A stretch of DNA of 55,145 nt from Frankia nepalensis. GTDB taxonomy: Bacteria > Actinomycetota > Actinomycetes > Frankiales > Frankiaceae. Location: contig NZ_JADWYU010000248.1 of NCBI RefSeq assembly GCF_016786325.1, forward strand, positions 1 to 55,145. Direction: 5' to 3'. A program made the translations under genes and the position numbers. This document shows, one piece after another, positions 28,690-51,824 of the stretch (positions within the stretch are counted from its first letter, which is position 1; the number at the start of each line of letters is the position of its first letter). The notes under the pieces were generated by a model. It did not search any database, had not been told where the DNA came from, and saw only the letters and a program-made list of their open reading frames with translations.

Positions 28690-29373
28690 TCAGAGCCGGG
28701 TAGAGATCTGGTAGCGGTCGGCCGGGTGGGTGTGGATGCCGACGCTGGCCAGGTGGCCGTCGCGGTCGTAGTGACGCCGTGTGATCACCAGGGCGGCCGA
28801 CGCGGAGTCGGCCCCCAGCGCGCGGGCCATCTCGTCGGTGAGCAGGGCGGCCGAGATGATCTGTTCGACCGGCTTGCCGGCGAGGTCCTCGGCCTGGAAG
28901 CTGACCCGGAGGATCTTGTCGTGTGGCAGGTCGGCTCGTAGGTACTGTTCACTCCAGCAGACCGGTATGTCGTCGCCGCGCCGGGTCCTGGCCCCGCGGA
29001 CGACGAACCACGGCGAGCCCTCGTCGGCGCCGACGCGGCGGGCGGTGTCGGCGTCGAGAAGGATCTCCGCCGAGGTCGGATGGACGATGCGCGTCTCGAC
29101 CGCGAGCGCGAGGATGTCCTCGGCGGACCGGGCGAACGGCTGGTAGTCCGCGACGGGCCTGGCCGCCACGACGGTGGTCCCCGCCCCTGGCCTGCGGCTG
29201 ACCAGTCCGAGCTCCTCGAGCCGTCGCAGCGCGCGCCGCACCGTCTCCCGGGCCAGACCGTGCGTCGCGCACAACTGCTCCTCGGTGGGGAACCGGCTTC
29301 CCACCGGGTAGGTGCCGTCGGCGATCCCGGTCAGCAGCTCCTCGGTCAGCACCCGGTGTCGCGGCGCCGCCAC
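28690..29373 (-). CDS. GntR family transcriptional regulator with UTRA domain (HutC subfamily)
   Basis: A 227-residue regulator. The N-terminal winged HTH has VLTEELLTGIADGTYPVGSR, FPTEEQLCATHGLARETVRR and ALRRLEELGLVSRRPGAGT. The C-terminal UTRA ligand domain (about residues 85-225) includes SPWFVVRGARTRRGDDIPVC and VEQIISAALLTDEMARALG. HutC-type regulators bind palindromes whose centre is often GTCTAGAC, as with the DasR site. Exact TTTGTCTAGACAAA palindromes occur before the divergent kinase gene and before the acyl-CoA dehydrogenase. It is therefore the best candidate to control the 29577-35420 operon, with an acyl-CoA or hydroxyacid as effector (inference). Confidence 0.9.
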   Translation of the reverse strand: MAAPRHRVLTEELLTGIADGTYPVGSRFPTEEQLCATHGLARETVRRALRRLEELGLVSRRPGAGTTVVAARPVADYQPFARSAEDILALAVETRIVHPTSAEILLDADTARRVGADEGSPWFVVRGARTRRGDDIPVCWSEQYLRADLPHDKILRVSFQAEDLAGKPVEQIISAALLTDEMARALGADSASAALVITRRHYDRDGHLASVGIHTHPADRYQISTRL

Positions 29374-29530: not shown

Positions 29531-29544
29531 TTTGTCTAGACAAA
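29531..29544. promoter_or_regulatory. GntR/UTRA operator, site 1
   Basis: Perfect palindrome TTTGTCTAGACAAA in the divergent promoter region between the GntR gene and the kinase gene, 32 bases before the kinase start. The same sequence occurs at 30746-30759 and, with changes at the edges, at 38621-38634. Confidence 0.8.
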
Positions 29545-29576
29545 GCGTCCCGATGTCGTCGCGAGGTGGGAGCGCC

Positions 29577-30569
29577 GTGACCGGACTGCTCGATGTCGAC
29601 CGGCTCGCGGGCTGGCTCGACGCGCGGGGCCTCGAGCCCGGCCTGCCGATCGCGGCGGCGCCGCTGACCGGCGGCAGGTCCAACGTCATGTTCACGATCG
29701 ACCGGGGCGAGCGGAGGTGGGTTCTGCGCCGGCCGGCGGCCGTCGCCGTGGACGGCGCCGACGCCGGGATGCGCCGCGAGTACCGCATCCTCGCTGCCCT
29801 GGGCGGCACCGGCGTACCGCATCCGGGAGTCGTCGCCCTGTGCGAGGACCCGGCCGTGCTTGGCCCCGTCTTCTACCTCATGGAGCGGCTCGACGGCGTG
29901 GTTCTCGTGCCGCCGCCGGCGCCGCTGGACACCGACACGGGCCGGGCCGAGGTTGCTCGTTCGATGGCCGAGTCGCTCGCTCGGCTGCACGCCGTCGACT
30001 GGCGGGGCCGCGGCCTTGGCGACCTGGGGCGGCCGGAGGGCTTCCACGAGCGGCAGACCAGCCGCTGGATTCGCCAGCTGCGGTCCTACGAGGGCCGGGA
30101 GCTCCCCGGCGTCGACGCGGTGACCGCCTGGCTGCGCGCCCACCTGCCGGCGTCGTTCACTCCGACGCTCATGCACGGGGACTACCACATGCTCAACGTG
30201 CTGATCGCGCCGGATCCACCGGGTCGCGTCGTCGCGATCCTCGACTGGGAGACCGCGACCATCGGCGACCCGCTGCTCGACCTGGCCGGGTTCTGCGAGG
30301 TCTGGAGCACCTCGCTGGGCGACCGGTGGGGAACCGCCGACCAACTCGTCGCGTGGTACTCGGGCGTGGCGGGCCACCTCGTGGGCGACCTCAAGATGGA
30401 CGACCTGACCTACCACCGTGTCCTCTACAACTTCCGGCTCGCGGTGTTGCTCGAAGGGATCTACCAGCGTTCGCTGCGGGACCCCACCCGCGCCGCCATG
30501 GAGGACATCGGGCAACGGGCCGGCTGGAACCTCGACCGCGCCCGGGATCTCGTCCGCTCGAGCGGGTAG
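29577..30569 (+). CDS. APH-fold acyl-CoA kinase, LvaA/ACAD10-kinase-like phosphotransferase
   Basis: A 330-residue phosphotransferase of the aminoglycoside/choline kinase fold. It shows LTGGRSNVMFTID, YLMERLDG, the Brenner-type catalytic motif LMHGDYHMLNVLI (His200-Gly-Asp202, Asn) and the metal-binding ILDWETATIGDP (Asp223). The family next to ACAD11-type dehydrogenases includes Pseudomonas LvaA and the kinase domain of human ACAD10/11, which phosphorylate 4-hydroxyacyl-CoAs. An antibiotic-resistance role is unlikely given the neighbours. GTG 29577 is preferred because GAGGTGGGAG precedes it; an upstream ATG at 29553 lacks a ribosome site and lies 9 bases from the operator. The ACAD11-type gene follows after 205 bases. 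Confidence 0.85.
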   Translation: MTGLLDVDRLAGWLDARGLEPGLPIAAAPLTGGRSNVMFTIDRGERRWVLRRPAAVAVDGADAGMRREYRILAALGGTGVPHPGVVALCEDPAVLGPVFYLMERLDGVVLVPPPAPLDTDTGRAEVARSMAESLARLHAVDWRGRGLGDLGRPEGFHERQTSRWIRQLRSYEGRELPGVDAVTAWLRAHLPASFTPTLMHGDYHMLNVLIAPDPPGRVVAILDWETATIGDPLLDLAGFCEVWSTSLGDRWGTADQLVAWYSGVAGHLVGDLKMDDLTYHRVLYNFRLAVLLEGIYQRSLRDPTRAAMEDIGQRAGWNLDRARDLVRSSG

Positions 30570-30745
30570 GGGCAAAGCCCGGCGGCGTGCCGTGCCGGCG
30601 CCGCCGGCCGCCAGGCAGCGGTGCGCGGCCGCGGCGCAGGCCATGGTGGCTGGCCGGCGGTCTCCGGCGGCGTTGGCCGCGTCGGCTGGGCCGGGGCCGG
30701 CTCTGCCGCGGCTCCTGGTTGCGCCCCGTCCACCGGCTCGCTAAC

Positions 30746-30759
30746 TTTGTCTAGACAAA
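30746..30759. promoter_or_regulatory. GntR/UTRA operator, site 2
   Basis: Second perfect TTTGTCTAGACAAA palindrome, ending 15 bases before the ATG of the ACAD11-type gene and directly next to its AAGGGG ribosome site. Binding here would overlap the transcription start or block elongation. It implies that the genes from 30775 onward have their own controlled promoter. Confidence 0.8.
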
Positions 30760-30774
30760 CTAAGGGGTCGATCG

Positions 30775-32061
30775 ATGATCAGCTTTGAGGTGGACCCAGC
30801 GCTGGCGGCCGAGCTCGCCTGGATCCGGGAGTTCGTCGCCACCGAGATCGAGCCGCTCGACCTCGCGTTCGGCGACGAGGAGGTCGTCTACGACAAGGCG
30901 CACCCGGTGCACGACCGCTACCTGCGTCCCCTGCAGGAGCGGGTGCGCGAGCGCGGGCTGTGGTCGTGTCACCTGACGCGTGAGTTCGGCGGCCAGGGCT
31001 ACGGGCAGGTCCAGCTCGCGCTGATGAACGAGATCCTGGGTCGCTCGGCATTCGCGCCGACCGTCTTCGGCTGCCAGGCGCCGGACTCCGGCAACGCGGA
31101 GATCCTTGCCCACTACGGCACCCTCGACCAGCGGGAGCGCTATCTCAAGCCGCTGCTCGACGGGGAGATCTCGTCCTGTTACGCGATGACCGAGCCGCAG
31201 GGCGGGGCGGACCCGGCGCTGTTCACGACCCGGGCCGCGCGGGACGGCGACCGCTGGGTGATCGACGGGGAGAAGTGGTTCTCCTCCAGCTTCGAGAAGG
31301 CCGCGTTCACCATCGTCATGGCCGTCACCAACCCGGACGTGCCCGTCTACCAGGGAACGTCGATGTTCCTCGTCCCGGCGGGAACCCCCGGGCTCGAGGT
31401 GATCCGGCGTACCGGACTGGGCTACGACGCCGAGGGCACAGGCAACCACCCCTATGTGCGCTACGACGGGGTCGCCGTGCCGGCGGAGAACCTGCTCGGG
31501 GGCGAGGGGCAGGCGTTCGTCATCGCCCAGACCCGGCTCGGCGGCGGCCGGCTGCACCACGCGATGCGCACGGTCGGCGCGGTCGCCCGCTGCCTGGACA
31601 TGCTGTGTGAACGCGCGCTGAGCCGGACCACCCAGGGCGAGCTGCTGGCGCGCAAGCAGCTGACCCAGCAGAAGATCGCGGAAGCCTGGGTCGAGCTGAC
31701 CCAGTTCCGCCTGCAGGTGCTGCACGCCGCCTGGTGCGTCGACACCCACGGGGCGAAGGCGGCCCGGCGGGAGATCGCCGGAGTCAAGGTCGCGACGCCG
31801 AAGGTGTACCACAACGCGGTGCTGCGCACGATGCACGCGCACGGCGCCCTCGGGATCTCCAACGAGATGCCGCTGGCCCGCATGCTGCTTGGTTCGGTGG
31901 CGCTCGGGATCGCCGACGGGCCTACCGAGGTCCATCAGGCCACCCTCGCGCGTGACGTCCTCAAGGAGCATCGCCCCAGCGAGGGCGCCTGGCCCAGCGA
32001 GCATCTTCCGGCGCGCCGCCAGGCCGCCCGTGCCCGCTACGCGAGCCTCGTGGAGGGGTGA
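30775..32061 (+). CDS. ACAD10/11-type acyl-CoA dehydrogenase family protein
   Basis: A 428-residue flavoprotein. Signatures shared with ACAD10/ACAD11 rather than ordinary beta-oxidation enzymes are GCQAPDSGNAEILAHYG (Gln101-Asn107), SCYAMTEPQGGADPALFTT, IDGEKWFSS and RLGGGRLHHAMRTVGAVAR. The end reads LGIADGPTEVHQATLAR, in which Asp381 takes the place of the canonical catalytic Glu of the 'YEGT' loop. ACAD11-type enzymes turn 4-phosphoacyl-CoA, made by the partner kinase, into an enoyl-CoA by eliminating phosphate. The kinase gene lies directly upstream. The ligase, SDR and reductase genes follow with 1-nt or overlapping junctions. Confidence 0.88.
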   Translation: MISFEVDPALAAELAWIREFVATEIEPLDLAFGDEEVVYDKAHPVHDRYLRPLQERVRERGLWSCHLTREFGGQGYGQVQLALMNEILGRSAFAPTVFGCQAPDSGNAEILAHYGTLDQRERYLKPLLDGEISSCYAMTEPQGGADPALFTTRAARDGDRWVIDGEKWFSSSFEKAAFTIVMAVTNPDVPVYQGTSMFLVPAGTPGLEVIRRTGLGYDAEGTGNHPYVRYDGVAVPAENLLGGEGQAFVIAQTRLGGGRLHHAMRTVGAVARCLDMLCERALSRTTQGELLARKQLTQQKIAEAWVELTQFRLQVLHAAWCVDTHGAKAARREIAGVKVATPKVYHNAVLRTMHAHGALGISNEMPLARMLLGSVALGIADGPTEVHQATLARDVLKEHRPSEGAWPSEHLPARRQAARARYASLVEG

Positions 32062-32062
32062 C

Positions 32063-33610
32063 GTGGTCTATCCGGGCTTATACGCGAGGACCGCGCCGGA
32101 CCGGCCGGCGGTCGTCATGGCCGCCGGCGGCGAGCGCGTCACCTACGCGCAGCTGGACGCGAGGTCCACCCAGCTGGCGCGGCTGCTGGCCGCGCGCGGC
32201 CTGAAGGTGGGCGACACGGTCGCGATCCTGGCCGAGAACCACCCGCGCTACTTCGAGGTGTACTGGGCGGCGAAGCGGTCCGGCCTGTATCTCACGGCGA
32301 TCAACCGCTACCTCGCCCCGGCCGAGGCCGCCTACATCATCGAGGACTCCGGCACGAAGGCGCTCGTCACCTCGGCCGCGCTGGCGGGCACCGCGGCCGA
32401 GGCGGCCGCGATGGTGCCCGGTCTCGGATGCCGGCTCATCCTGGACGGCGAGCTGGCCGGGTTCGAGCCGTACGAGGCCGCGCTGGCCACCCAGCCCGCC
32501 ACGCCGCTGGACGACGAGCCGCGCGGCGAGGTGATGCTCTACTCGTCGGGCACGACCGGCCGGCCGAAGGGCATCCGCCGTCCGCTGACCGGGCGGAGCG
32601 TCGACGATCCCGAGGGTGCCGGCACGTCCCTGCTGGAGCGGGCCGTGTTCGGGATGGACGAGACGTCGGTCTACCTGTGCCCGACACCGCTGTACCACGC
32701 GGCGGGGCTGCAGTGGTCGGCCGGCGTGCACGAGCTGGGCGGCACCCTCGTCGTGCTGGAGAAGTTCGACGCCGAGGGCATGCTCGCGGTGATCGAGCGC
32801 GAGCGGGTCAGCCATACCCAGGTCGTCCCGACGATGCTCGTCCGTGTGCTCAAGCTGCCCGGCGAGCGGCGGCTGCGGTATGACCTGTCGAGCCTGCGCC
32901 GTGTGATCCACTCGGCGGCCCCGTGCCCGCCCGACGTCAAACGGGCCATGATCGACTGGCTTGGCCCGATCGTGGACGAGTACTACGCGAGTACCGAGGG
33001 CGCCGGCCTGTCCTATATCGGTGCCGCCGACTGGCTGAGTCACCCCGGCTCCGTCGGGCGGCCGCTGGTCGGCGTCCCGCACGTGTGCGCCGACGACGGC
33101 GCCGAACTGCCGGCCGGCGAGCCGGGGCTGCTCTACTTCGAGCAGCCTGCCGCCTCCTTCTCCTACCACGGCGATCCGGAGAAGACCCGGTCCAGCCGCC
33201 ACCCGGTCCACCCGAACTGGATCGCGGTCGGCGACGTCGGCTATCTGGACGACGAGGGCTACCTCTATCTCACCGACCGCAAGAGCTTCATGATCATATC
33301 GGGTGGGGTGAACATCTACCCGGCCGAGATCGAGGCCTGCCTGGTGATGCACCCGCTGGTCGCCGACGTCGCGGTCTTCGGCCTGCCCGACCCCGAGATG
33401 GGCGAGTACGTGCACGCCGTCGTGCAGCCCGCCCCTGGGGTCGCGCCGTCGCCGGAGCTCGCCGAACAGCTGCGCGCCCACGCCCGCGACGCCCTCGCCC
33501 ACTACAAGGTCCCGCGGGTCGTCAGCTTCCGCGACGAGCTGCCCAGGATGCCCACCGGGAAGCTGGCGAAGGGCGTGCTGCACGACGAGTACCGCAAGGA
33601 CGGATCGTGA
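32063..33610 (+). CDS. AMP-dependent acyl-CoA synthetase/ligase
   Basis: A 515-residue adenylate-forming enzyme that activates a carboxylic acid to its CoA thioester using ATP. Core motifs are YSSGTTGRPKGIRR (P-loop-like A3), YYASTEGAG (A5), GDVGYLDDEGYLYLTDR (A7/A8 hinge), SGGVNIYPAEIEA and the lysine loop RMPTGKLAKGVL (A10). Start GTG 32063 lies one base after the upstream stop, and GGAGGGG in the dehydrogenase tail is its ribosome site. Its stop overlaps the next GTG start (GTGA). In an lva-like reading it corresponds to LvaE, which makes the 4-oxo- or 4-hydroxyacyl-CoA; the real substrate is unknown. Confidence 0.9.
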   Translation: MVYPGLYARTAPDRPAVVMAAGGERVTYAQLDARSTQLARLLAARGLKVGDTVAILAENHPRYFEVYWAAKRSGLYLTAINRYLAPAEAAYIIEDSGTKALVTSAALAGTAAEAAAMVPGLGCRLILDGELAGFEPYEAALATQPATPLDDEPRGEVMLYSSGTTGRPKGIRRPLTGRSVDDPEGAGTSLLERAVFGMDETSVYLCPTPLYHAAGLQWSAGVHELGGTLVVLEKFDAEGMLAVIERERVSHTQVVPTMLVRVLKLPGERRLRYDLSSLRRVIHSAAPCPPDVKRAMIDWLGPIVDEYYASTEGAGLSYIGAADWLSHPGSVGRPLVGVPHVCADDGAELPAGEPGLLYFEQPAASFSYHGDPEKTRSSRHPVHPNWIAVGDVGYLDDEGYLYLTDRKSFMIISGGVNIYPAEIEACLVMHPLVADVAVFGLPDPEMGEYVHAVVQPAPGVAPSPELAEQLRAHARDALAHYKVPRVVSFRDELPRMPTGKLAKGVLHDEYRKDGS

Positions 33611-34356
33611 CGGGACCATCGTTGCGGCTCGACGGGAAGGTCGCGCTGGTCACCGGCGCCAGCCGCGGGCTGGGCCGGGCCATCGCGCTCGGGTTCGCCG
33701 CCGCCGGCGCCGACGTGGTCGTGTCCAGCCGCACGGACCAGGCGTGCGAACCGGTGGCCACCGAGATCCGCCGCCAGGGGCGCCGGGCGCTCGCGGTGGG
33801 CGCGCACGTCGGCGACTGGGGCGACTGCGAGCGGCTGGTCGACCGGGCCGTCGGCGAGCTCGGCCGGCTCGACGTGCTGGTGAACAACGCCGGCATCGCG
33901 CCCGTGCCGCCGTCGCTGGCCGGCGTCACCGAGGCGCTGTTCGACAAGACGGTCGCGGTCAACCTCAAGGGGCCGCTGCGCCTGACGGGACTCGCGGGCC
34001 CGCGCCTGCCACCGGGCGGATCCGTGATCAACATCAGCTCGAAGGCCTCGACGCACCCCACGCCGCACACCGTCGTCTACGCGGCGGCGAAGGCAGGGCT
34101 GAACGCGCTGACCGTCGCCGCCGCCCAGGAGCTCGGGCCCAGGGGCGTGCGGGTCGACGCGATCGTCTGCGGCTCGTTCCACACCGACAGCTTCGACCGC
34201 TCGATCCCGACGCCCGAGCTCGCCGAGCAGTTCGCCGCCCGGATCGCGCTCGGCCGGATCGCCACGCCCGACGAGATCGTCGGGACGGCGCTGTTCCTCG
34301 CGTCGGACGCGTCGTCCTACATGACCGGCGCGCTGCTGACGCTGGACGGAGGATGA
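33607..34356 (+). CDS. SDR family oxidoreductase (LvaD-like position)
   Basis: A classical SDR of 249 residues: [33 protein letters not shown] and YAAAKAGLN, ending SYMTGALLTLDGG. GTG 33607 overlaps the ligase stop; its own stop overlaps an ATG of the next gene. In the levulinate pathway an SDR reduces the 4-oxoacyl-CoA to 4-hydroxyacyl-CoA; it could equally oxidise a 3-hydroxyacyl-CoA after phosphate elimination. The tight coupling means it works with the ligase and the ACAD11-type enzyme. Confidence 0.88.
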   Translation: MTGPSLRLDGKVALVTGASRGLGRAIALGFAAAGADVVVSSRTDQACEPVATEIRRQGRRALAVGAHVGDWGDCERLVDRAVGELGRLDVLVNNAGIAPVPPSLAGVTEALFDKTVAVNLKGPLRLTGLAGPRLPPGGSVINISSKASTHPTPHTVVYAAAKAGLNALTVAAAQELGPRGVRVDAIVCGSFHTDSFDRSIPTPELAEQFAARIALGRIATPDEIVGTALFLASDASSYMTGALLTLDGG

Positions 34357-34358
34357 TC

Positions 34359-35420
34359 ATGACATCGACGGCTACCCCGGCCGAGGACACGGTGCGCGCT
34401 GTCGTCTGCACTGAGCTGACCGGCGAGGACGCGCTGGAGGTGCGCGACCGGCCCCGCGCGCCGCTCGGGCCGCGCGCGGTCCGGATCGCGGTCCGGGCCG
34501 CGTCGGTGAACTACCCGGACGTCCTGATGATCCGTGGCCAGTACCAGGCCCGGACGGAGCCGCCGTTCGTGCCGGGGACCGAGGCCGCCGGCGACATCGT
34601 CGAGGTGGGAGCCGAGGTGACCGGGCTCGCCGTCGGCGACCGGGTCCTGTCGGTCGTCGGCGTCGGGGCCTTCGCGACCGAGGCCGTCGTCACGCCGCCG
34701 TGGCAGCAGGTCCACCGGATCCCCGACGCGATGCCCTACGACGAGGCCGCCGCGTTCGACATCACCTACGGCACCGCGTACCACGGGCTGATCGGCCGCG
34801 GCGGGCTCGTGGCCGGCGAGTCGGTGCTGGTCACCGGGGCGAGCGGCGGCTGCGGGTCGGCCGCGGTCCAGGTGGCCAAGGCCGCCGGCGCCCGGGTGCT
34901 GGCGGTCGCCGGCGGCGCCGAGAAGACCGCCCTCGTCCGGGAGCTCGGCGCGGACGCCGCCTTCGACCACCGCGAGCTCGACCCGGCCGACCCGAAGGCG
35001 CTCTCGGCCCTGGTGCGCCAGCACACCGGCGGCCAAGGGGTCGACGTCGTGTTCGACACCGTCGGGGGCGCCGACATCCGCGAGCCGCTGCGCGCGCTCG
35101 CCTGGAACGGGCGGTACCTGGCGATCGGGTTCGCGGGTGGGATACCCACCGTGAGCGTCAACCAGACGATCCTCAAGTGCATCTCGATCATCGGCGTCGC
35201 CTACGGCATGTCCGCCCTTCACGACCCGGCGGCCAACGCACGGGACATGAAGGCGCTGTTCGACTGGTACCGCGAGGGCAAGGTCCGGCCGTCCATCGGG
35301 CATCGGTACCCCCTGGCGGAGGCGGCCGAGGCGCTGCGGGTCGTGCGGCAGCGACGGGTTCTCGGCAAGGTCGTCATCGAGATGCCGTCGGACGTGAGCA
35401 GCCCGGCGGCCGGGCGGTGA
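34359..35420 (+). CDS. NADPH:quinone oxidoreductase-like MDR enzyme (zinc-less)
   Basis: A 353-residue medium-chain reductase of the quinone oxidoreductase/enoyl reductase group without zinc ligands. Visible are VRAASVNYPDVLMIRGQYQ, PFVPGTEAAGDIVEVGAEV, the cofactor loop VLVTGASGGCGSAAVQVAKA, and FDTVGGADIREPLRALAWNG. Family members reduce quinones, 2-enoyl-CoAs or enones using NADPH. ATG 34359 is chosen because GGAGG is 6 bases upstream; ATG 34353 overlaps the SDR stop but is too close to that site. It is last in the 30775-35420 operon. A 2-enoyl-CoA reductase step after phosphate elimination would be plausible. Confidence 0.88.
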   Translation: MTSTATPAEDTVRAVVCTELTGEDALEVRDRPRAPLGPRAVRIAVRAASVNYPDVLMIRGQYQARTEPPFVPGTEAAGDIVEVGAEVTGLAVGDRVLSVVGVGAFATEAVVTPPWQQVHRIPDAMPYDEAAAFDITYGTAYHGLIGRGGLVAGESVLVTGASGGCGSAAVQVAKAAGARVLAVAGGAEKTALVRELGADAAFDHRELDPADPKALSALVRQHTGGQGVDVVFDTVGGADIREPLRALAWNGRYLAIGFAGGIPTVSVNQTILKCISIIGVAYGMSALHDPAANARDMKALFDWYREGKVRPSIGHRYPLAEAAEALRVVRQRRVLGKVVIEMPSDVSSPAAGR

Positions 35421-35452: not shown

Positions 35453-35494
<42 letters not shown>

Positions 35495-35529: not shown

Positions 35530-36447
35530 TCAGCGGCGCGGGAGGTCCAGCAACTCGGCCGCTTCGGGGCTCGACGCGACCGGCCGGCCGACGGCCTTGC
35601 ACAACGCGACCGCCTCGGTGACCAGCTCGACGTTCGTCGGCTGGCGCTGTCCGCCGTAGAACTCGACGCCGAGGTGCAGGTGGCCGCCGCGCTCGAGGGC
35701 GAGGCGCGCGACGTCGGCGGCGACCACGTCGCCACCGACGACCGACACCGCCCAGGGCAGCGGCCGGTCGCCCAGGATCTCCAGGTAGGCGTCGAGCGCG
35801 GCCGCGGTGGGCGGGAGCCCGAACGGGGCGCCGATGAGCCCGCGCTCCGTCGAGAAGTACAGCTTGATCATCGCTCCCTGGGGCAGCCGGCCCGCGTCCC
35901 ACCAGGCCAGCGTCGTGCGCAGCCACCCCGGCTCGTAGATGGCGATGCTCGGGCCGAGCGCGTGCTCCCGGCAGATGCCGAACGCATGGGCGATCGCGTC
36001 GTAGGAGTTTCGGTACACGAACCCGCCGGTCGGAATCCCGTCGGGGCCGCGTCCCCCGAGGTTCACCGAGCCCGGGTCGACGATGGCGATGCGCAGCAGC
36101 CCGGACTCCGCGAGCGGGACCTGGTGGTCATAGCCGATCTCGCCGCCCGGGCCGGGATTCACGGTGGGGTAGATCAGCGCCTCGGGCCGTGCCGCTAGCA
36201 CCGGCCGCCACCCCCGCAGGTACCGCTCCGCGGCGACCGCGTCGGGGCCGAAGGTGTCGACATGGTTGTGGATGATGGCGGCGCCGGCATCGAGGCAGGC
36301 GATCGCGTCGGCCGCGATCTCCTCCGGGGAGATCGGCACGTTCGGGTTCTGTGCCTTCCCGACGGATCCGTTGATCGCCGCCTCGATGATCACTGGGCCT
36401 GGTGGGGCCGGGGGAGCCCAGGAACGGGACGGTGATGTCGACGCCAC
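35530..36447 (-). CDS. BKACE (3-keto-5-aminohexanoate cleavage enzyme) family protein, DUF849
   Basis: A 305-residue TIM-barrel enzyme. BKACE proteins condense a beta-keto acid with acetyl-CoA and cleave it to acetoacetate and a CoA ester, using zinc. Family signs are VIIEAAINGSVGKAQNPNVP, the metal-binding IIHNHVDTFG, YPTVNPGPGGEIGYDH, and WAVSVVGGDV followed by GGHLHLGVEFY. GTG 36447 is preferred because GGAAAGAGGAAG precedes it; longer versions would add unrelated residues. It lies 189 bases downstream of the amidohydrolase on the same strand and may share its GntR-type control. Confidence 0.87.
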   Translation of the reverse strand: MASTSPSRSWAPPAPPGPVIIEAAINGSVGKAQNPNVPISPEEIAADAIACLDAGAAIIHNHVDTFGPDAVAAERYLRGWRPVLAARPEALIYPTVNPGPGGEIGYDHQVPLAESGLLRIAIVDPGSVNLGGRGPDGIPTGGFVYRNSYDAIAHAFGICREHALGPSIAIYEPGWLRTTLAWWDAGRLPQGAMIKLYFSTERGLIGAPFGLPPTAAALDAYLEILGDRPLPWAVSVVGGDVVAADVARLALERGGHLHLGVEFYGGQRQPTNVELVTEAVALCKAVGRPVASSPEAAELLDLPRR

Positions 36448-36636
36448 TGCTTCCTCTTTCCCTGGTGGTGTTTCCGGACCTCGTCCGCGACAGGGCCGTG
36501 GCTGATCTCCGGCCCTCCGATCCCTGGCCTCCGACGCGCCGCGCGGCGACCGGGTGAGCGACGGCCAAGCGCGGACCGCCATGCGCGGACGGCCGCGGAA
36601 GGCGCGGCACGTCGGCGTCGTGTGGCGGTCCGCCGC

Positions 36637-38376
36637 TCACGCCCGGTGGGCCGCCGTGGCGGGATTGCGTACCAGCCGTCCCGGAAGCGCGCCCGTCGGT
36701 TCACCGTCGCGGTAGGTGACGGCGCCGCTGACCATGGTGAGCGCGTAGCCCTCCGCCTTCTGGACGAGCCGGCGGCCGCCCGCGGGCAGGTCCCGGACCG
36801 CGACGGGCCGGTGCAGCCGGAGGGCGTCGTAGTCGATGACGTTGAGGTCGGCCTTGAACCCGGGCGCGAGCAGGCCACGGTCGCGCAGCCCGACGGTCTC
36901 GGCGTTTGGCCTGGTAAGCAGCCGGACCGCCTCCTGCACCGGGATCCTCGGGCCTCGGGTGCGGTCGCGGGTCCAGTGGGTGAGCAGGGTCGTCGGGTAG
37001 CTTCCGTCGCTGATCGTGCCGTAGTGCGCGCCGCCGTCGCCGAGGCCGACGACGGTGTGCGGGTCCCGCAGAAGAAGGCGGACCGGCTCGAGGCTGTCGC
37101 TCTGGTAGTTGGTGGCCGGCAGGAGGAACGCGGCGAGCCCGCCGCTGTCGACGATCGTGTCGTAGATCAGCTCGCGGGGGGTGATTCCCCGAGCCGCCGC
37201 GAGCGCGCCCATCGTCCTGTCGGGCGTCGGCTCGTAGTCGGGCACCTCGGCCATGAGGTAAAGCGCGGCGTCCTGGCTGGCGAAGTACTGGAAGACGGGG
37301 TTGGGGTGTTCGGGCCGCTCGGACAGGATCCGTGCCCGACGGTCCGGGGCACGCATGGCCTCGACGCGCTCGGGCAGCGGCAGGTCGCCGATCTGCTGGT
37401 AGCTCGGGTTGAAGACGAAGGGATGGAAGGAGAAGTCGAGCCCGAGGACGACTCCCACCGGGCGGGGGAAGACCTGCCCGCGGATCGGCGGGAGACCGTC
37501 GCGGTCCTGCGCGGCCAGCGCGTCGAGGTAGCGCTGGTGGTGGTCCGGGAAGTGCTGCGAGCTCATGAGCGAGAAGGACAGTGGCCCGCCCGAGGTCATG
37601 GTCAGCCGTCGGAACAGCGCCACCTCCGCGAGGGGGTCGTGCGCGCCCTGGCTGCCGATGAGCTGGAGCACGCCCGCGCCGGCCTGGCGCAGGCCACGCG
37701 CCAGCGCGTGCAGTTCGGCCTCGTCGGCCCCGACCGTCGGCGCCAGGTCACCTTCGGGGGTTCGGTGGCCGATGCTGCGGGAGGTGCTGACCCCCATGGC
37801 GCCGGCCGTCACCGCCTCGGCGACGATGCGCGTCATCTCGTCGAGGTCGCCCGGCGTTGGCGCCTCCCGGTTCGCCCCGCGCTCTCCCATGACATGCACG
37901 CGGACCGCCGCGTGCGGGAGCTGCGACGCGAAGTCCATGTCGGCCGCGCGATCGGCCAGCACCGACAGGTACTCCGGGTAGGTCTCCCAGGTCCAGGGCA
38001 GACCTTCCGCCATGACGATCTCGGGGATGTCCTCGACGCCCTCCAGGACCTTGACCAGCAGCTCGCGATGGTGCGGGCTGCAGGGAGCGAAACCGACGCC
38101 GCAGTTGCCCATCACGGCGGTGGTGACGCCGTGACTCGACGACGGCGACAGGCGGTGCTCCCAGGTGATCTGACCGTCGTAGTGGGTGTGGATGTCCACG
38201 AATCCCGGCGTCACCAGCTTGTCCCGCGCGTCGGTCTCGACGTCGCCGGCGCCTTCGACCCGGCCGACCGCGACGATTCTGCCGTCCCTGATCGCGACAT
38301 CGCCCTCGAACAGCTCGCCGCCGCTGCCATCCGCGATCGTCCCGTTACGGATCACGTGGTCGAAATTCGGTGCCAT
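36637..38376 (-). CDS. Amidohydrolase family protein, N-acyl-D-amino acid deacylase-like
   Basis: A 579-residue metal-dependent hydrolase of the D-aminoacylase/dihydroorotase-like amidohydrolase group. The first metal site is D61-I-H63-T-H65-Y-D-G. Further family segments are VMGNCGVGFAPC (with the cysteine metal ligand of D-aminoacylases), VRVHVMGERGANREAP, STSRSIGHRTPEG, and HTVVGLGDGGAHYGTISDG near the C-terminus. It should hydrolyse an N-acyl or cyclic amide bond. Upstream at 38621-38634 is a near copy of the TTTGTCTAGACAAA operator. It could therefore release the carboxylic acid that the CoA ligase at 32063 then activates (inference). Confidence 0.87.
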   Translation of the reverse strand: MAPNFDHVIRNGTIADGSGGELFEGDVAIRDGRIVAVGRVEGAGDVETDARDKLVTPGFVDIHTHYDGQITWEHRLSPSSSHGVTTAVMGNCGVGFAPCSPHHRELLVKVLEGVEDIPEIVMAEGLPWTWETYPEYLSVLADRAADMDFASQLPHAAVRVHVMGERGANREAPTPGDLDEMTRIVAEAVTAGAMGVSTSRSIGHRTPEGDLAPTVGADEAELHALARGLRQAGAGVLQLIGSQGAHDPLAEVALFRRLTMTSGGPLSFSLMSSQHFPDHHQRYLDALAAQDRDGLPPIRGQVFPRPVGVVLGLDFSFHPFVFNPSYQQIGDLPLPERVEAMRAPDRRARILSERPEHPNPVFQYFASQDAALYLMAEVPDYEPTPDRTMGALAAARGITPRELIYDTIVDSGGLAAFLLPATNYQSDSLEPVRLLLRDPHTVVGLGDGGAHYGTISDGSYPTTLLTHWTRDRTRGPRIPVQEAVRLLTRPNAETVGLRDRGLLAPGFKADLNVIDYDALRLHRPVAVRDLPAGGRRLVQKAEGYALTMVSGAVTYRDGEPTGALPGRLVRNPATAAHRA

Positions 38377-38763
38377 CTAGCCCGCCTCCCAGGCGTTCCG
38401 TGCCTGCTCCGACCGACGGTCCCCCCCCACACGGGGAGGACCCCCAGATCCCGCGCGTGGGGCACGTCCACGCCACGCGCTTCGCGCTCTTCCTCGTCCG
38501 GCCCGGGTCAGCGTTCCGCCAGGACGCCGATCATCACCGTGGTCCTGCTCGGTGGTCGCGACCCGCGGGCCGGGCCCGGCGCCGAGCGGGATGGGTCATC
38601 TGACAGGCGGTACGGCGTGATCTGTCTAGACAAAATAACGTCCTCGCGTGTCCTACGCCACAGGTTGGCCGGGACGCGGTCGTTCCCGCCTCTCGGAACG
38701 GAACGCGCCCACCTCGGCAACGGCCGGCCCCCCGCGACGCCCTTTCACCTGTGGGACGCCCCT
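38377..38763. other. Intergenic region upstream of the amidohydrolase
   Basis: About 390 bases without a gene. It holds a strong G/C hairpin at 38418-38442 (arms GGTCCCCCCC and GGGGAGGACC) in the presumed leader of the amidohydrolase transcript, and the GntR-type palindrome at 38621-38634. Confidence 0.5.
38621..38634. promoter_or_regulatory. GntR/UTRA operator, site 3 (degenerate)
   Basis: The 10-bp core TGTCTAGACA is a perfect palindrome and identical to the centre of sites 1 and 2. The full 14-mer differs from TTTGTCTAGACAAA in one edge base of the left arm (TCTG). It is 245 bases upstream of the amidohydrolase start, the only gene it could control by position. Confidence 0.65.
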
Positions 38764-40692
38764 TCAGCGCAGGACGTAGTCCGCCGGGTTCGGCGCGCGG
38801 GTGAGACGCCAGTAGTCGTAGAGGTTGAACGGCCAGTTCTGCGCGATGCGTCCCTTGCCGTTGCGGTACCAGGTGTGCACGTCGGAGACGCCCCAGGCGC
38901 GCTCGTCGGTGGCGGCGTCGATCCACTCGTTGTAGCGGTCGTGGGCCTCGGGCCGGCAGTCCAGGGAGGCGGCGTCCCGCGCGAGCAGCAGGCCCACGCA
39001 CTCGGTGATGTAGCGGGCGGCGCACTCGGAGAAGTAGATGATGCTGCCGTTGACCACGATGTTCGTGTTCGGCCCGTACATGAGAAAGAGATTCGGGAAA
39101 CGGGGCACCGTGATCCCGAGGTGAGCGCGGGCGTCCCCGTCCCACCAGTCGTGCAGGTCCAGGCCGCCCGCGCCGACGACGCGCATCGGAGTCAGGAAAC
39201 GGGACGCCTGGAAACCGGTTCCGTAGACGATGACGTCGTGGTCGACGTGCCGGCCGTCGGCCAGCTGGATCCCCGACGGGGTGATCCGTCCGATCTCGGC
39301 GGTCTCCAGAGTGACGTCCGGGCGTTGCAGGGTGGCCGCGTAGCGACCGCTGTCCGGGATCATGCGTTTCGCGCCGTAGAAATGGGTGGGCAGCACCTTG
39401 GCGCGCAACGCCGGATCGGGGAACACGGCCTCGTACCAGGCCGTCAGCCGGCGCCGGGCCAGGTCGTTGACGGCGCTGACCGAGTTGTTGGAGCGGTCCC
39501 AGCGGGGATCCACGATGGTCTGCGGGAGTGTGCCTTCCTGGAGGCGTCCGAAGGTGGTCAGCCGGTCCCAGCGGGCGTAGTCGGGCACGTGCCGCAGCAG
39601 CCAGTTGATCTCGGCGGGCAGGTCGTCGTGATAGTTCGGGACCGGCAGCAGCCAGGGCGCGGTCCGCTGGTAGACGGTCAGCCGCGCGGCCCGTTCGGCC
39701 AGCGGGGGAACGAACTGGACGGCGCTCGCGCCGGTGCCGATGACCGCGACGCGCCGTCCGGTGACGTCGATGTCATGCCGCCAGCGGGCCGAGTGGAAGT
39801 ACGGCCCGCCGAAGCTGTCGATCCCCTCGATGTCCGGCAGGCTTGGGCGGTTGAGCTGGCCGACGGCGCTGACGACGGCGTTCGCCTCGTGGGTGCGCTC
39901 GGCGCCGGACGCGTCGCGCAGGCGCAGCGCCCAGCGGCTGGTCTGGTCGTTCCACCGGGCCTCGACGACCTCCGTGCCAAGGCTGATCAGCTCGGCGAGC
40001 CCGAACTCGTCGGCGCAGCTTCGGAAGTAGTCGAGCAGGACTGGCTGCGTGGAGTTGAACTGAGGCCAGTGGCCGGTCTGGGCGAACGAGTAGCTGTAGA
40101 GGTGGTTGGGCACGTCGACGCGGCAGCCGGGGTAGGAGTTCTCGAGCCACGTCCCCCCGAGGTCGGTGTTCTTCTCGAAGACGCGCACGTCGACGCCGGC
40201 CTGACGCAACCGGTGCGCGGCGACGAGGCCGGACATCCCCGCGCCGATAACGGCGACGGAGAACCGCCGGCGCGGCGCCGTGGTGGCCACCCGCCATCGC
40301 GGCGCCCGAAGGTCGCCGCCAAGGGCCAGCTCCTCTTGGAGCAGTTCGAGGTAGTCGTCGTCGACGGCGGCGGGCGCGACGACGAACTCGACCAGCGCGC
40401 GCAGTTGCTTGGGATCCGGCTCGACGGGCGGCGGGCAGCGGCGGTCGCGATAACGAATCAGCGCGTCGGCGGCCGAAAGGCGTGCCCTGGCCGCGGTCTC
40501 GGACGGGTAGCCGTAGTCCGGCGGCATCCACGGTAATGCCGGATCGGGCCGGATGTCGTCGGATAACAGGTCGTACTCGCCGGTGAGCTGCGCGACCGCG
40601 GCGAGAAGCGGCGCCACCGGGGCCTGGGCGGCCTGAGCCCGGATGGTGGCGTCGTCAGCGTCGATGTCCTCGCGGGTGAAGTCCAGGCGCAT
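38764..40692 (-). CDS. Flavin-containing monooxygenase, Baeyer-Villiger type
   Basis: A 642-residue class B flavoprotein monooxygenase. The FAD motif is VIGAGMSGLVAAHRL, the second Rossmann motif for NADPH is VIGTGASAVQFV, and the Baeyer-Villiger fingerprint F-x-G-x3-H-x3-W is present exactly as FGGPYFHSARW. About 150 residues precede the FAD domain, like the long-N-terminus group. It would insert oxygen next to a ketone to give an ester or lactone. ATG 40692 (MRLDFTREDI) is preferred over a GTG at 40743 because that GTG lies inside the palindromic operator boxes. It is divergent from a TetR gene, its likely repressor. Confidence 0.88.
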   Translation of the reverse strand: MRLDFTREDIDADDATIRAQAAQAPVAPLLAAVAQLTGEYDLLSDDIRPDPALPWMPPDYGYPSETAARARLSAADALIRYRDRRCPPPVEPDPKQLRALVEFVVAPAAVDDDYLELLQEELALGGDLRAPRWRVATTAPRRRFSVAVIGAGMSGLVAAHRLRQAGVDVRVFEKNTDLGGTWLENSYPGCRVDVPNHLYSYSFAQTGHWPQFNSTQPVLLDYFRSCADEFGLAELISLGTEVVEARWNDQTSRWALRLRDASGAERTHEANAVVSAVGQLNRPSLPDIEGIDSFGGPYFHSARWRHDIDVTGRRVAVIGTGASAVQFVPPLAERAARLTVYQRTAPWLLPVPNYHDDLPAEINWLLRHVPDYARWDRLTTFGRLQEGTLPQTIVDPRWDRSNNSVSAVNDLARRRLTAWYEAVFPDPALRAKVLPTHFYGAKRMIPDSGRYAATLQRPDVTLETAEIGRITPSGIQLADGRHVDHDVIVYGTGFQASRFLTPMRVVGAGGLDLHDWWDGDARAHLGITVPRFPNLFLMYGPNTNIVVNGSIIYFSECAARYITECVGLLLARDAASLDCRPEAHDRYNEWIDAATDERAWGVSDVHTWYRNGKGRIAQNWPFNLYDYWRLTRAPNPADYVLR

Positions 40693-40715
40693 GCCCGCAA
40701 CTATCGCACGAGGTT

Positions 40716-40749
40716 CGGACGCCTGTCCTATAGTCTCGGACACGTGTCC
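40716..40749. promoter_or_regulatory. Two TetR operator boxes CGGAC-N3-TGTCC, 21 bp apart
   Basis: Box 1 CGGACGCCTGTCC (40716-40728) and box 2 CGGACACGTGTCC (40737-40749) start exactly 21 bases apart, two helical turns. Box 2 extends to a perfect 14-bp palindrome (40737-40750). TATAGT lies between them and could be a -10 element. They separate the monooxygenase (minus) from the TetR gene (plus). Confidence 0.65.
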
Positions 40750-49433: not shown

Positions 49434-50414
49434 ATGGCCGGACGTGACATCGAGTTCAACCTTTTGACGGACCGCCTCGCCCCGGCGGGGGTGCGGGATG
49501 TGCGCGCGCTGGCGGGGGGCGCCTCGAGCCTGACCTACGCCGGGTCGATCGGCGCGCGGCGGGTGGTGGTGAAGGTGGCGCCGCCGGGGGTCGCGCCCGT
49601 GCGCAACCGCGACGTGCTGCGCCAGGCCCGGGTGCTGCGCGCGCTGGCCCCGACGGCGGTGGCGGTCCCCGAGGTCGTGTGGGAGGACCCGGGCGACCCG
49701 CCGGAGGTACCCCCGCTGTTCGTCATGTCCTTCGTCGAGGGGACCTCGCTGGAGCCGCTGTTCGACCGTGGGGACGGTCGGGAGCCCGCGGCGGTGGTCG
49801 CCGAGCGCCTGCGCGCGGCCGCCCGCGCGCTGGCCGTCCTGCACCGTCTCGACCCGGGGGCGCTCGGGCTCGCCGCGGAGCCGCTGGTGAGCCCGGGGGT
49901 CGAGGTCGACCGCTGGTGCCGGCCGCTGGAGACCGTCGACGCGGCCCTCGTCCCCGGCTGGGCCGCGGTTGCCGCGGCGCTGCGCGCCGGCGAGCCGCCG
50001 GCCCTGGCGCCCGCCCTGGTGCACGGGGACTTCCGCCTGGGCAACCTGCTCGCCGACGGTCCGGACGTCACCGCGGTCGTCGACTGGGAGATCTGGTCGG
50101 TGGGGGATCCCCGCACCGACCTCGGCTGGTTCCTCGTCAACGCCGACGCGGCGACGTACCGCCGCGCGACGGCCTACACGGGGCTGCTTCCGGGGCCCGA
50201 CGACCTCGCGGCGGCCTACGCGCGGGCGCTCGGCCGCGACGTGCCGGACCTGGCCTGGTTCCAGGCCCTGGCCTGTTTCAAGTCGGCGGCCACGTGGTCG
50301 CTGATCGTGAAGCACAACCGCCGGGCCGCCGAGCCCGACCCGGCGCTCGAGGAGATGGCCGCGACCCTGCCCCATCTGCTGGAGCGCGCGCGGCACTTCC
50401 TCGACCGGCGCTGA
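49434..50414 (+). CDS. APH-fold phosphotransferase, second LvaA/ACAD10-kinase-like protein
   Basis: A 326-residue kinase-fold protein with LAGGASSLTYAGSIGARRVV (nucleotide loop), FVMSFVEGTSLEPL, LVHGDFRLGNLLA (His197-Gly-Asp199, Asn) and VVDWEIWSVGDPRTDLGW (Asp217). HGDFRLxN followed by DWE.x.xGDPxxDL is the signature of the ACAD10/11-associated kinase group. It ends about 115 bases before the end of the convergent ACAD11-type gene. By analogy it phosphorylates a hydroxyacyl-CoA. Confidence 0.85.
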   Translation: MAGRDIEFNLLTDRLAPAGVRDVRALAGGASSLTYAGSIGARRVVVKVAPPGVAPVRNRDVLRQARVLRALAPTAVAVPEVVWEDPGDPPEVPPLFVMSFVEGTSLEPLFDRGDGREPAAVVAERLRAAARALAVLHRLDPGALGLAAEPLVSPGVEVDRWCRPLETVDAALVPGWAAVAAALRAGEPPALAPALVHGDFRLGNLLADGPDVTAVVDWEIWSVGDPRTDLGWFLVNADAATYRRATAYTGLLPGPDDLAAAYARALGRDVPDLAWFQALACFKSAATWSLIVKHNRRAAEPDPALEEMAATLPHLLERARHFLDRR

Positions 50415-50528
50415 TCCTCGACCGGCGCTGATCCTTCCGAGGGCCCTCGGGCCGGCGCCGCGACGGCGGCGGCCCGCCGGGACCCACGCCAGGACCGCGC
50501 GAGGAACGCGTCAGGCCGCCGGCGGGGC

Positions 50529-51824
50529 TCAGACGCGGGGGATGCCCGCCAGCCGGTCGGCGAACTTGGCCTCCGCCGCCGCGCGCAGCCGCAGCAGGTG
50601 CTCGGAGGGGAACAGGTCCGGTGCCGGCTTGTAGTTCTTCAGGAGCTGGCGCGCCAGCGTCACCTTGTGCACCTCGGTCGGCCCGTCGGCGAGGCCGAGC
50701 ACGAACGACTCCACGAGATGCGCCACGAAGGGCATCTCGTGGGTCGTGCCCAGCGAGCCGTGAAGCTGCAGGGCGCGCGCGGACACGTCGTGCAGCACCT
50801 TCTGCATCATGGCCTTCACGGCCGAGATGTCGGCGCGCACCTTCTGGTAGTCGTCGAACTGGTCGATCTTCCAGGCCGTGTGCATGGTGAGCAGGCGGAA
50901 AGCCTCGATCTCCGTCCACGAGTCGGCGACCATCTCCTGGACCATCTGCTTGTTGCCGAGCAGCTCGCCCTGGGTGTACCGCGAGACGGCCCGTTCGCAG
51001 ATCATGTCGAAGATGCGGCGGACGAGGCCCACGGTGCGCATCGCGTGGTGGATCCGCCCGCCGCCGAGGCGGGTCTGGGCGACGGCGAAGGCGCCTCCGC
51101 GCGGGCCGAGCATGTGGTCGTCCGGCACGCGCACGTTCTCGTAGCGGACGTAGCCCTCCCGGCCGCCGCCGAGCGGCTGGTAGCCGAGGCCGACGTCGCG
51201 CAGCACGTTGACGCCCGGTGTCCCGCCCGGGATGACGAACATCGTGTGCCGCTCGTACGGCGGGGCGTCCGGGTCGGTCACCGCCATGACGATGATGAAC
51301 GCCGCCATCGACGCGAACGACGAGAACCATTTCTCGCCGTTGATGACCCACTCGTCGCCGTCCCGGACGGCCTGAGTGGTGAACACCTTGGGGTCGGCGC
51401 CGCCCTGCGGCTCCGTCATCGAGAAACAGGACACGATGCGGTTGTCGAGTAACGGCTCCAGGTACCGCTTCTTCAGGTCCGGCGTGCCGTAGCGGGCGAG
51501 GATCTCGCTGTTTCCCGAGTCCGGCGCCTGGGACCCGAACACGATCGGCGCGCATTCCGAGCGCCCGAGTATCTCGTTCAGCAGCGCGAGCTTCACCTGA
51601 CCGTAGCCGGGGCCGCCCAGATGCGGCCCGAGATGCGTCGCCCACAGGCCACGCTCCTTGACGACCTTCTGGAGCGGCGGGATCAGGGCCTGGCGGACCG
51701 GGTCACCCAGATCATGGGACTCCCGGATGACGAGGTCGATCGGCTCGCACTCCTCCCGGACGAACGCCTCCGCCCACGCCAGCTGCTCGGCGTACTCGGG
51801 GTCCGTCGAGAAGTCCCACGCCAT
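50529..51824 (-). CDS. ACAD10/11-type acyl-CoA dehydrogenase family protein, second copy
   Basis: A 431-residue flavoprotein closely similar to the one at 30775. It shares GSQAPDSGNSEILARYG, SCFSMTEPQGGADPKVFTT, INGEKWFSS, TRLGGGRIHHAMRTVGLVRR and LGLADGPTEVHKVTLARQLL, with Asp again in place of the canonical catalytic Glu. It presumably eliminates phosphate from the product of the neighbouring kinase. ATG 51824 is preceded by AAGGGA. It is divergent from the SDR/thiolase/crotonase operon at 51925. Confidence 0.88.
   Translation of the reverse strand: MAWDFSTDPEYAEQLAWAEAFVREECEPIDLVIRESHDLGDPVRQALIPPLQKVVKERGLWATHLGPHLGGPGYGQVKLALLNEILGRSECAPIVFGSQAPDSGNSEILARYGTPDLKKRYLEPLLDNRIVSCFSMTEPQGGADPKVFTTQAVRDGDEWVINGEKWFSSFASMAAFIIVMAVTDPDAPPYERHTMFVIPGGTPGVNVLRDVGLGYQPLGGGREGYVRYENVRVPDDHMLGPRGGAFAVAQTRLGGGRIHHAMRTVGLVRRIFDMICERAVSRYTQGELLGNKQMVQEMVADSWTEIEAFRLLTMHTAWKIDQFDDYQKVRADISAVKAMMQKVLHDVSARALQLHGSLGTTHEMPFVAHLVESFVLGLADGPTEVHKVTLARQLLKNYKPAPDLFPSEHLLRLRAAAEAKFADRLAGIPRV

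Follow-up and report, generated by a model that had tools for sequence, protein, structure and literature searches.

A GntR/HutC-associated kinase and acyl-CoA dehydrogenase cassette in Frankia nepalensis: a proposed regulon for the catabolism of 4-oxo or 4-hydroxy acids

In the actinobacterium Frankia nepalensis, a regulator gene on the minus strand and five plus-strand genes occupy positions 28690-35420 of contig NZ_JADWYU010000248.1 (analysed over its full 55,145 nucleotides, hereafter the window), and from our point of view they probably represent a catabolic regulon under GntR/HutC control, through which carboxylic acids with a 4-oxo or 4-hydroxy group would enter beta-oxidation. At the centre of this locus, which forms part of a 10.73-Mb assembly of 398 contigs and 96.8% completeness, stands a gene pair that very likely encodes a 4-hydroxyacyl-CoA kinase with an APH fold (29577-30569, plus strand) and a phosphate-eliminating homologue of the acyl-CoA dehydrogenases (ACAD; 30775-32061, plus strand), followed by genes for a CoA ligase, a short-chain dehydrogenase/reductase (SDR) and a medium-chain dehydrogenase/reductase (MDR). 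A first-pass annotation of this DNA had named these five genes together with the motifs HGDYHMLN, DWE, QAPDSGN and RLGGGRLHHAMRTVG, all of which are found in the sequence. Added here are the regulator at 28690-29373, three operator-like sites, an amidohydrolase-BKACE operon that may be linked to the cassette and, at 49434-51824, another kinase-ACAD pair.

The ACAD homologue, a proposed 4-phosphoacyl-CoA lyase with a redox-active flavin adenine dinucleotide (FAD), is assigned by Pfam to plain Acyl-CoA_dh, and its best sequence matches in the PDB are 4hr3 (1e-79) and ACAD11 (2wbi and 8v3u, 6e-73), with ordinary ACADs appearing only from 2e-42. Its identity is 39% with mouse ACAD11, 32-33% with LvaC types, 85% with the ACAD of Frankia gtarii and 41% with a protein of Burkholderia arboris that we assume to be kin of the B. 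pseudomallei enzymes assayed in PMC11342911. A structure model built from 22 aligned relatives (predicted local distance difference test score, pLDDT, 87.7) likewise finds 4hr3 and ACAD11 as its top fold matches. According to PMC12440821 and PMC11342911, mouse ACAD11 is held to bind the phosphorylated substrate by R626, H634 and R637, with R631 and the base D753 as further residues, and its expanded cavity is ascribed to a proline (P463 in the human protein); Ala or Leu at R626, H634 or R637 are named in the former source as the changes most disruptive to the ACAD step. The equivalents P103 (human P463), R254, R259, H262, R265 and D381 (mouse R626, R631, H634, R637 and D753) are kept in the window protein, which also has H261, and are invariant in the 22-row alignment; the ACAD11 residues were placed by motif, the PDB chain numbering being one lower there than that of the paper. 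The segment Q252-R265 (QTRLGGGRLHHAMR; 31528-31569, plus strand), the counterpart of mouse ACAD11 R626-R637 as described in PMC12440821, would by homology form the phosphate-binding helix, and D381 (31915-31917, plus strand), a Glu in the three conventional ACADs of our set, would be the catalytic base.

Among 102 ACAD rows, the signature reads PRRHHRD in 94 and PRRTHRD, the LvaC type, in 4, is truncated in 1 and lacks the pattern in the 3 conventional ACADs. Since the rows were picked by likeness to the query, this count describes constancy within the group and not independent support: 99 rows come from loci collected by similarity to the window ACADs (matches above 110 bits, reading frames above 300 amino acids, 13 loci being omitted as repeats of others or as containing only other matches), and the remainder are the mouse protein and two window rows, one of which (ACAD2) duplicates a locus row.

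For the kinase, the best PDB sequence matches are 3dxp (5e-44), 9o56 (3e-43) and the ACAD11 kinase domain (1e-32), far ahead of Rv3168 (5e-6), antibiotic kinases (5e-5 or worse) and 25-hydroxysteroid kinase (1e-4). It retains the catalytic D202 and N207 (ACAD11 D220 and N225), the former within H200-G201-D202, the DWE motif (D223-W224-E225) and R159, the counterpart of ACAD11 R176, which PMC12440821 describes as a CoA contact on the basis of modelling. The R86 of that paper could not be placed by PDB numbering, and the Arg preceding the alphaC Glu is retained as R67 (R67-E68). R159 and R67 are not universal in the group, since both Pseudomonas LvaA-type kinases compared lack the equivalents. 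With the ACAD11 residues for a 4-phosphoacyl-CoA in the one protein and the catalytic residues in the other, a kinase acting together with a phosphate-eliminating ACAD, as proposed earlier, is well supported by diagnostic residues. The best homologues by sequence are not antibiotic kinases and ordinary ACADs, the ACAD11 parts ranking far above both. Pfam, in which the kinase is named only as APH, next to a weak EcKL match, and the ACAD only as Acyl-CoA_dh, would allow for an ordinary FadE-type dehydrogenase next to an unrelated antibiotic- or choline-kinase-like neighbour; in view of the signature residues, the Asp base, the placement of the protein among the ACADs and the pairing of all eight signature ACADs of this genome with kinases (see below), this is hardly credible, and a plain FadE reading was dropped on the signature residues and the clade placement. 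An antibiotic-resistance kinase was rejected as well, because macrolide and aminoglycoside kinases match only at the level given above in the PDB and stay far under the NCBIfam cut-offs.

The fold of the kinase is less favourable to this assignment. Its model (pLDDT 92.0) is closest to 3dxp, followed by Rv3168 and 25-hydroxysteroid kinase (9fsg and 9ft5, ranks 3-5); past the first five rows the list consists mostly of antibiotic kinases, which prevail among the best 50 matches, and the ACAD11 kinase (8v3v) is not among these 50. One could hence speculate that the substrate of the kinase is a different lipid alcohol, for example a tertiary one as in the case of 25-hydroxysteroid kinase, which according to PMC8449060 serves an ATP-dependent dehydration, and that the ACAD eliminates phosphate elsewhere on a branched or cyclic acyl-CoA. 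The nearby genes for an amidohydrolase, a BKACE protein and a candidate Baeyer-Villiger-type enzyme, the last one assigned by motif, would be in line with such a substrate. We regard this as rather improbable, given that 3dxp ranks first by sequence as well as by fold, that the ACAD11 kinase domain far surpasses 25-hydroxysteroid kinase by sequence and that R159 is retained. The nearest solved structures by sequence and fold, 4hr3 (a putative ACAD of Mycobacterium abscessus) and 3dxp (a Ralstonia APH-fold protein), are both titled "putative"; the sequence file of 3dxp reads "putative acyl-CoA dehydrogenase" and its title aminoglycoside phosphotransferase, a discrepancy that may stem from its resemblance to the kinase domain of ACAD10/11.

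In a quick maximum-likelihood tree of 47 ACADs, with a single mouse row and the three conventional ACADs as outgroup, the window ACAD falls together with the ACAD10/11 and LvaC groups and separate from the conventional ones (Shimodaira-Hasegawa-like approximate likelihood ratio test, SH-aLRT, 93; the outgroup branches are long). The LvaC group comprises three Pseudomonas proteins and one of the own genome (SH-aLRT 98), and the ACAD10/11 group comprises mouse, Burkholderia and Bosea proteins, two of the own genome and one of Actinocorallia (SH-aLRT 99). Both window ACADs and three more of the own genome belong to a third group of 34 rows (SH-aLRT 100, branch length 1.1), which unites with the ACAD10/11 group at an SH-aLRT of 94. 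The label "ACAD11-type" given earlier hence holds for the residues but not for the clade, as the window ACAD lies outside both the LvaC and the ACAD10/11 clades. Among the loci collected, L028-L030 and L071 are records of metagenome-assembled genomes (MAGs) titled Bifidobacterium breve or Klebsiella pneumoniae with ACADs close to uncultured actinobacterial or gammaproteobacterial ones; these titles look wrong.

The F. nepalensis genome contains nine ACAD matches at 1e-30 or better, eight of them with the signature, and all eight (five from the third clade) lie within 62-1164 bases, match to match, of one of 14 kinase matches. Six of the 14 kinases have no signature ACAD alongside, and the ninth ACAD match, located at a contig end, has neither the signature nor a kinase match on its contig. 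The LvaC-clade member (L011, C155:41197-45306) carries Thr for the first His of the HH pair, has a kinase and an SDR alongside and shows one TGA within the ACAD match. A second pair within the window consists of a kinase gene (49434-50414, plus strand) and a convergent signature ACAD gene (50529-51824, minus strand), with SDR, thiolase and enoyl-CoA hydratase genes (named by eye) nearby. This second kinase is of another type, with Gln for the alphaC Glu, a feature common to 29 rows, and no R176 equivalent; it also belongs to a 29-row clade of the kinase tree, in which two rows represent the same gene and which was not compared row by row with the Gln rows. Partners may have been swapped here, as the second window ACAD groups with that of locus L008, where a further type of kinase is present. 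Across 47 hand-chosen pairs, the distances between ACADs and between kinases correlate with a Mantel r of 0.63, across the 39 pairs without the KIN2 type with 0.77 and, when thinned to 27 pairs, with 0.61 (p 0.0001 each; all uncorrected for species kinship).

Outside this genome, several findings weigh against our reading. Of 80 ACAD loci, 26 contain an ACAD of at least 66% identity, and only 2 of these, many of which are short contigs, have a kinase within 10 kb, compared to 45 of the remaining 54. Because this looked contrary to a pairing, kinases were searched for in 12 of the 26 genomes. All 12 genomes, each with the ACAD orthologue, have kinase matches; the best kinase is 55-60% identical in seven and just 37-47% identical in the other five, which again is unfavourable. 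The seven kinases, all from MAGs, lie outside the stretch around the ACAD, and on another contig in the only two genomes with both genes placed (G079 and G090); in favour of our reading, each of the seven has as its neighbour an SDR (68-70% identity), the loci being only 3.4-4.0 kb long, and the three that were put into the kinase tree group with the window kinase (7 rows, SH-aLRT 100). By strict identity, the co-occurrence over one order is mixed: among 118 genomes, a kinase of at least 50% is present in 4, an ACAD of at least 65% in 3 and both in only 2. With loose cut-offs, 55 of the 65 ACAD-bearing genomes of this order show a kinase match, versus 28 of the 53 others (counted by eye and uncorrected for genome size and kinship). 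Lastly, no paper on actinobacterial members of the group or on the third clade was found in the open-licence literature, nor any activity reported for this clade, and the identities with mouse ACAD11, the B. arboris protein and the LvaC types given above count on the same side.

Regarding the operon itself, the first-pass annotation had the ACAD directly following the kinase; the two genes are indeed adjacent, but 205 bases with an exact palindrome copy lie between them, and an in-frame ATG at 29553 is a possible alternative start of the kinase. From the ACAD to the MDR the genes are tightly packed. The gene for the acyl-CoA ligase (32063-33610, plus strand; AMP-binding, FadD4/PRK13390-like, NCBIfam scores of 657 and 630 bits, both under the cut-offs) starts 1 base after the ACAD stop, and the overlaps claimed for the last three genes exist, with 4 bases each, at the ligase/SDR and SDR/MDR borders. 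The SDR (33607-34356, plus strand) is a classical one by Pfam and NCBIfam (TGASRGLG, YAAAK), and the MDR (34353-35420, plus strand) is of the quinone reductase/enoyl reductase type (PIG3-like; TIGR02824, 2e-65, 221 bits vs. 297 needed). The earlier idea of an operon that includes a CoA ligase and an SDR is supported. Immediately past the end of the MDR gene, a poly-G run at 35453-35488 (7 G, 1 C, 28 G) is possibly an assembly or sequencing artefact.

Orthologues of the window ACAD are sporadic, being present in 3 of 35 genomes of the family (own genome included; E 1e-180). The genome G019, whose ACAD is 93% identical, repeats the cassette as GntR, palindrome, kinase, ACAD, SDR and MDR (the last an 82% orthologue directly after the SDR) with no ligase inside, the order in F. 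gtarii is palindrome, ACAD, SDR, kinase and GntR, and Rhodococcus sp. OK519 shows GntR plus kinase, an alcohol-dehydrogenase-like gene (named by eye), the palindrome, an SDR-like and a cyclase-like gene, ACAD and SDR; the GntR orthologues are 86%, 65% and 47% identical, respectively. A Rhodococcus rhodochrous plasmid repeats the order kinase-ACAD-SDR-MDR with a kinase of another type, a Massilia plasmid carries kinase-ACAD-SDR, and 32 of the 80 loci have an SDR of at least 45% identity no more than 3 kb away from the ACAD. The gene prediction for related loci is weak on AT-richer DNA (none for L016 and L018, few for L036, L107 and L109). It is a further difficulty for our reading that ligase and MDR are inconstant, with the MDR found only in G019 and a ligase beside the core in none of the three orthologous cassettes. 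The own genome encodes five similar ligases (E 1e-110), this one included, and a 63% relative in F. gtarii is located downstream of operator-like sites. The recurrent core hence looks like kinase, ACAD and SDR, with ligase and MDR being variable, also because the kinase and SDR orthologues are neighbours in the seven MAGs even without the ACAD beside them. A single lva-like operon as the unit was rejected for this core, and the added reductase noted earlier, while present in this operon, is, like the ligase, not a constant of the orthologous cassettes.

From the observed genes, residues, phylogeny, palindrome distribution and gene sets, and by homology as far as reactions, repression and substrate class are concerned, the following route is proposed. 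The ligase would form the CoA ester, the MDR, proposed by way of a guess to be a conjugated enone/enoate reductase, would saturate the conjugated double bond of those substrates that contain it, and the SDR, taking the part of LvaD as the ligase would that of LvaE, would reduce the 4-oxoacyl-CoA to the 4-hydroxyacyl-CoA. The kinase would then transfer phosphate from ATP to the 4-hydroxy group with D202 as the catalytic base. In the ACAD, D381 would remove the alpha proton while the C3 hydride passes to FAD, the phosphate, held by R254, H262 and R265, would depart as the 2,4-dienoyl-CoA forms, and the hydride would return to C5, yielding an ordinary 2-enoyl-CoA without net oxidation and without the involvement of an electron-transferring flavoprotein; a redox-neutral FAD chemistry of this kind was proposed for ACAD10 in PMC11342911. 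General beta-oxidation, perhaps with the BKACE protein, would complete the degradation. Of the catabolism of a 4-hydroxy or 4-oxo acid proposed in the first-pass annotation, the operon is supported, the kinase-lyase chemistry is, from the residues, very likely, and 4-oxo/4-hydroxy acids are, by homology, the likely substrate class.

The position of the SDR in this route is open to dispute, as the enzyme could equally act at C3. With the chemistry of kinase and ACAD unchanged, it would then be a 3-hydroxyacyl-CoA dehydrogenase working after the lyase, and the natural substrates would be 4-hydroxy acids, such as those derived from lactones, without the participation of a 4-oxo acid. The SDR is just 36-40% identical to the SDRs of three Pseudomonas DUF6285 loci, it matches best a broad NCBIfam family (glucose 1-dehydrogenase) and a Burkholderia cluster of the ACAD10/11 type contains SDRs as well. 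In the seven split genomes, on the other hand, the SDR adjoins the kinase throughout, which fits a step just ahead of phosphorylation, and LvaD works before phosphorylation in P. putida according to PMC6692424. We therefore consider a C3 enzyme possible, at a clearly lower probability than the reduction of a 4-oxoacyl-CoA.

The regulator (28690-29373, minus strand), divergent from the kinase gene, combines a GntR helix-turn-helix (HTH) domain (Pfam, 5e-15) with a UTRA ligand domain (2e-14) and matches NCBIfam HutC at 6e-27 (94.5 bits, under the cut-off of 220). Exact copies of an operator-like palindrome, TTTGTCTAGACAAA, precede the kinase gene (29531-29544, about 157 bases from the GntR start) and, as found by sequence scan, the ACAD gene (30746-30759), and a third copy with one mismatch is located at 38621-38634. 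With up to 3 mismatches the window holds these 3 sites, compared to 0.03 expected from shuffles, and with up to 1 mismatch only three places exist in the whole 10.73-Mb assembly, versus none for the reversed control. The site is exact in G019, has one mismatch in F. gtarii and two in Rhodococcus OK519 and in L035, and the core GTCTAGAC occurs five times in 1.56 Mb of related loci, four times at cassettes or, in L035, before an ACAD orthologue alone. On the other side of the balance, with 2 mismatches allowed the palindrome and its control are about equally frequent in the own genome (4 vs. 3), so that the sites in Rhodococcus OK519 and L035 are at a background-like level. The palindrome fits the HutC consensus NyGTMTAKACNy given in PMC4494728, and the adjacent regulator is of the same type. 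The HTH, the UTRA domain and matching palindromes, as predicted sites, at the target promoters are all present, and we propose that the GntR protein is the repressor of the regulon, which would bind TTTGTCTAGACAAA at the three promoters and be released when a pathway compound binds to UTRA. It would resemble the GntR/HutC regulators NagR and DasR in its HTH and UTRA domains and in a site that matches the published consensus, and would differ from them in the site flanks, TTT/AAA, and in controlling acyl-CoA genes.

The third palindrome lies about 245 bases upstream of the start of a gene for an Amidohydrolase_3 family protein (36637-38376, minus strand; Pfam 3e-54), which is followed by one for a protein of the BKACE (beta-keto acid cleavage enzyme) family (35530-36582, minus strand; Pfam 1e-45). 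These two could form a linked operon, and this one operator-like site suggests, weakly, a connection to the cassette; of the 80 loci, 3, 3 and 0 have a relative of the amidohydrolase, the Baeyer-Villiger monooxygenase (BVMO) and the BKACE protein, respectively, at most 10 kb from the ACAD. The earlier operon picture can hence be maintained, amended by the HutC-type GntR gene, the operator-like sites and perhaps this second operon. Adjoining the amidohydrolase gene, a candidate gene at 38764-40743 (minus strand) encodes what we take, from a motif, to be a Baeyer-Villiger-type flavoprotein. Further BVMO-like genes occur at L074, L087, the Rhodococcus locus L124 and L092, where a relative of the amidohydrolase is found as well. 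As a lead only, a one-mismatch site of Rhodococcus OK519 is surrounded by transporter genes; an amidohydrolase gene (48%), transcribed in the direction of this site, has its 3' end about 2.2 kb away, and a BVMO-like gene (34%) follows at a greater distance. F. gtarii has a pair of operator-like sites, with one and two mismatches, between divergent branched-chain-type transporter genes (L123, C111:28000-43500), with luciferase-like monooxygenases and the 63% ligase relative downstream and a P450 in the surroundings; this locus is a candidate for an uptake and oxidation module of the same regulon.

The lva operon of Pseudomonas putida KT2440 (lvaABCDE and lvaR), as described in PMC6692424, PMC12440821 and PMC11342911, shares with the window locus separate genes for kinase, ACAD, SDR and CoA ligase in one operon and the same predicted chemistry, a match that remains weak for CoA ligase and SDR because both belong to general enzyme families. 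The order kinase-ACAD-ligase-SDR plus MDR is different, as had been anticipated, the regulator is a HutC-type GntR protein instead of the sigma-54 PrpR-like LvaR and the ACAD, 32-33% identical to LvaC types, belongs to another clade. A permease as in lva is absent from the ten neighbouring genes scanned. The prediction of no LvaB-like protein also held, as DUF6285 (LvaB, PF19802) has 0 matches in the assembly, while it lies between kinase and ACAD in a Pseudomonas locus of lva order (L108), which consists of a presumed LvaR-like gene, named by likeness to a table in PMC6692424, the kinase, a 118-amino-acid gene at the DUF6285 match, ACAD, SDR and ligase. LvaB is not absolute either, since according to PMC6692424 no lvaB homologue was found in the P. 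citronellolis region analysed. The window locus is not an lva operon, because of the HutC-type GntR regulator, the lack of DUF6285 matches and the position of the ACAD outside the LvaC clade. With ACAD10, ACAD11 and their Burkholderia relatives it shares the active-site residues for a phosphorylated substrate, the Asp base and the catalytic and CoA-contact residues of the kinase; it differs in the separation of kinase and ACAD into two genes instead of one polypeptide (a stop codon and a 205-base spacer that contains an operator-like site intervene), in its separate clade (SH-aLRT 99 and 100, union 94) and in its operon with ligase, SDR and MDR. Residues of ACAD10/11 and LvaC are kept, yet two features of ACAD10/11 proper and three of the lva operon are lacking.

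The handling of 4-hydroxy acids in mammals and Pseudomonas was settled only by papers of 2017-2025, and the present locus suggests that a large separate bacterial branch handles them likewise, possibly on different substrates and in the absence of LvaB. We lean slightly towards the view that this third branch of phosphate-eliminating ACADs has multiplied in environmental bacteria, its copies being matched to their own kinase and often to an SDR, and that it would provide a general bypass of gamma-substituents with substrate-specific circuits instead of a special levulinate route. If true, the gamma-substituted acids handled would be terpenoid, lactone, oxylipin or ring-cleavage products, and the GntR regulon would be one such circuit. 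The ligand domain of the regulator, together with a palindrome that is rare and located exactly at the promoters, offers a handle for finding the inducer and hence the substrate, and the third clade may provide two-protein systems for studying an unusual FAD reaction without net oxidation.

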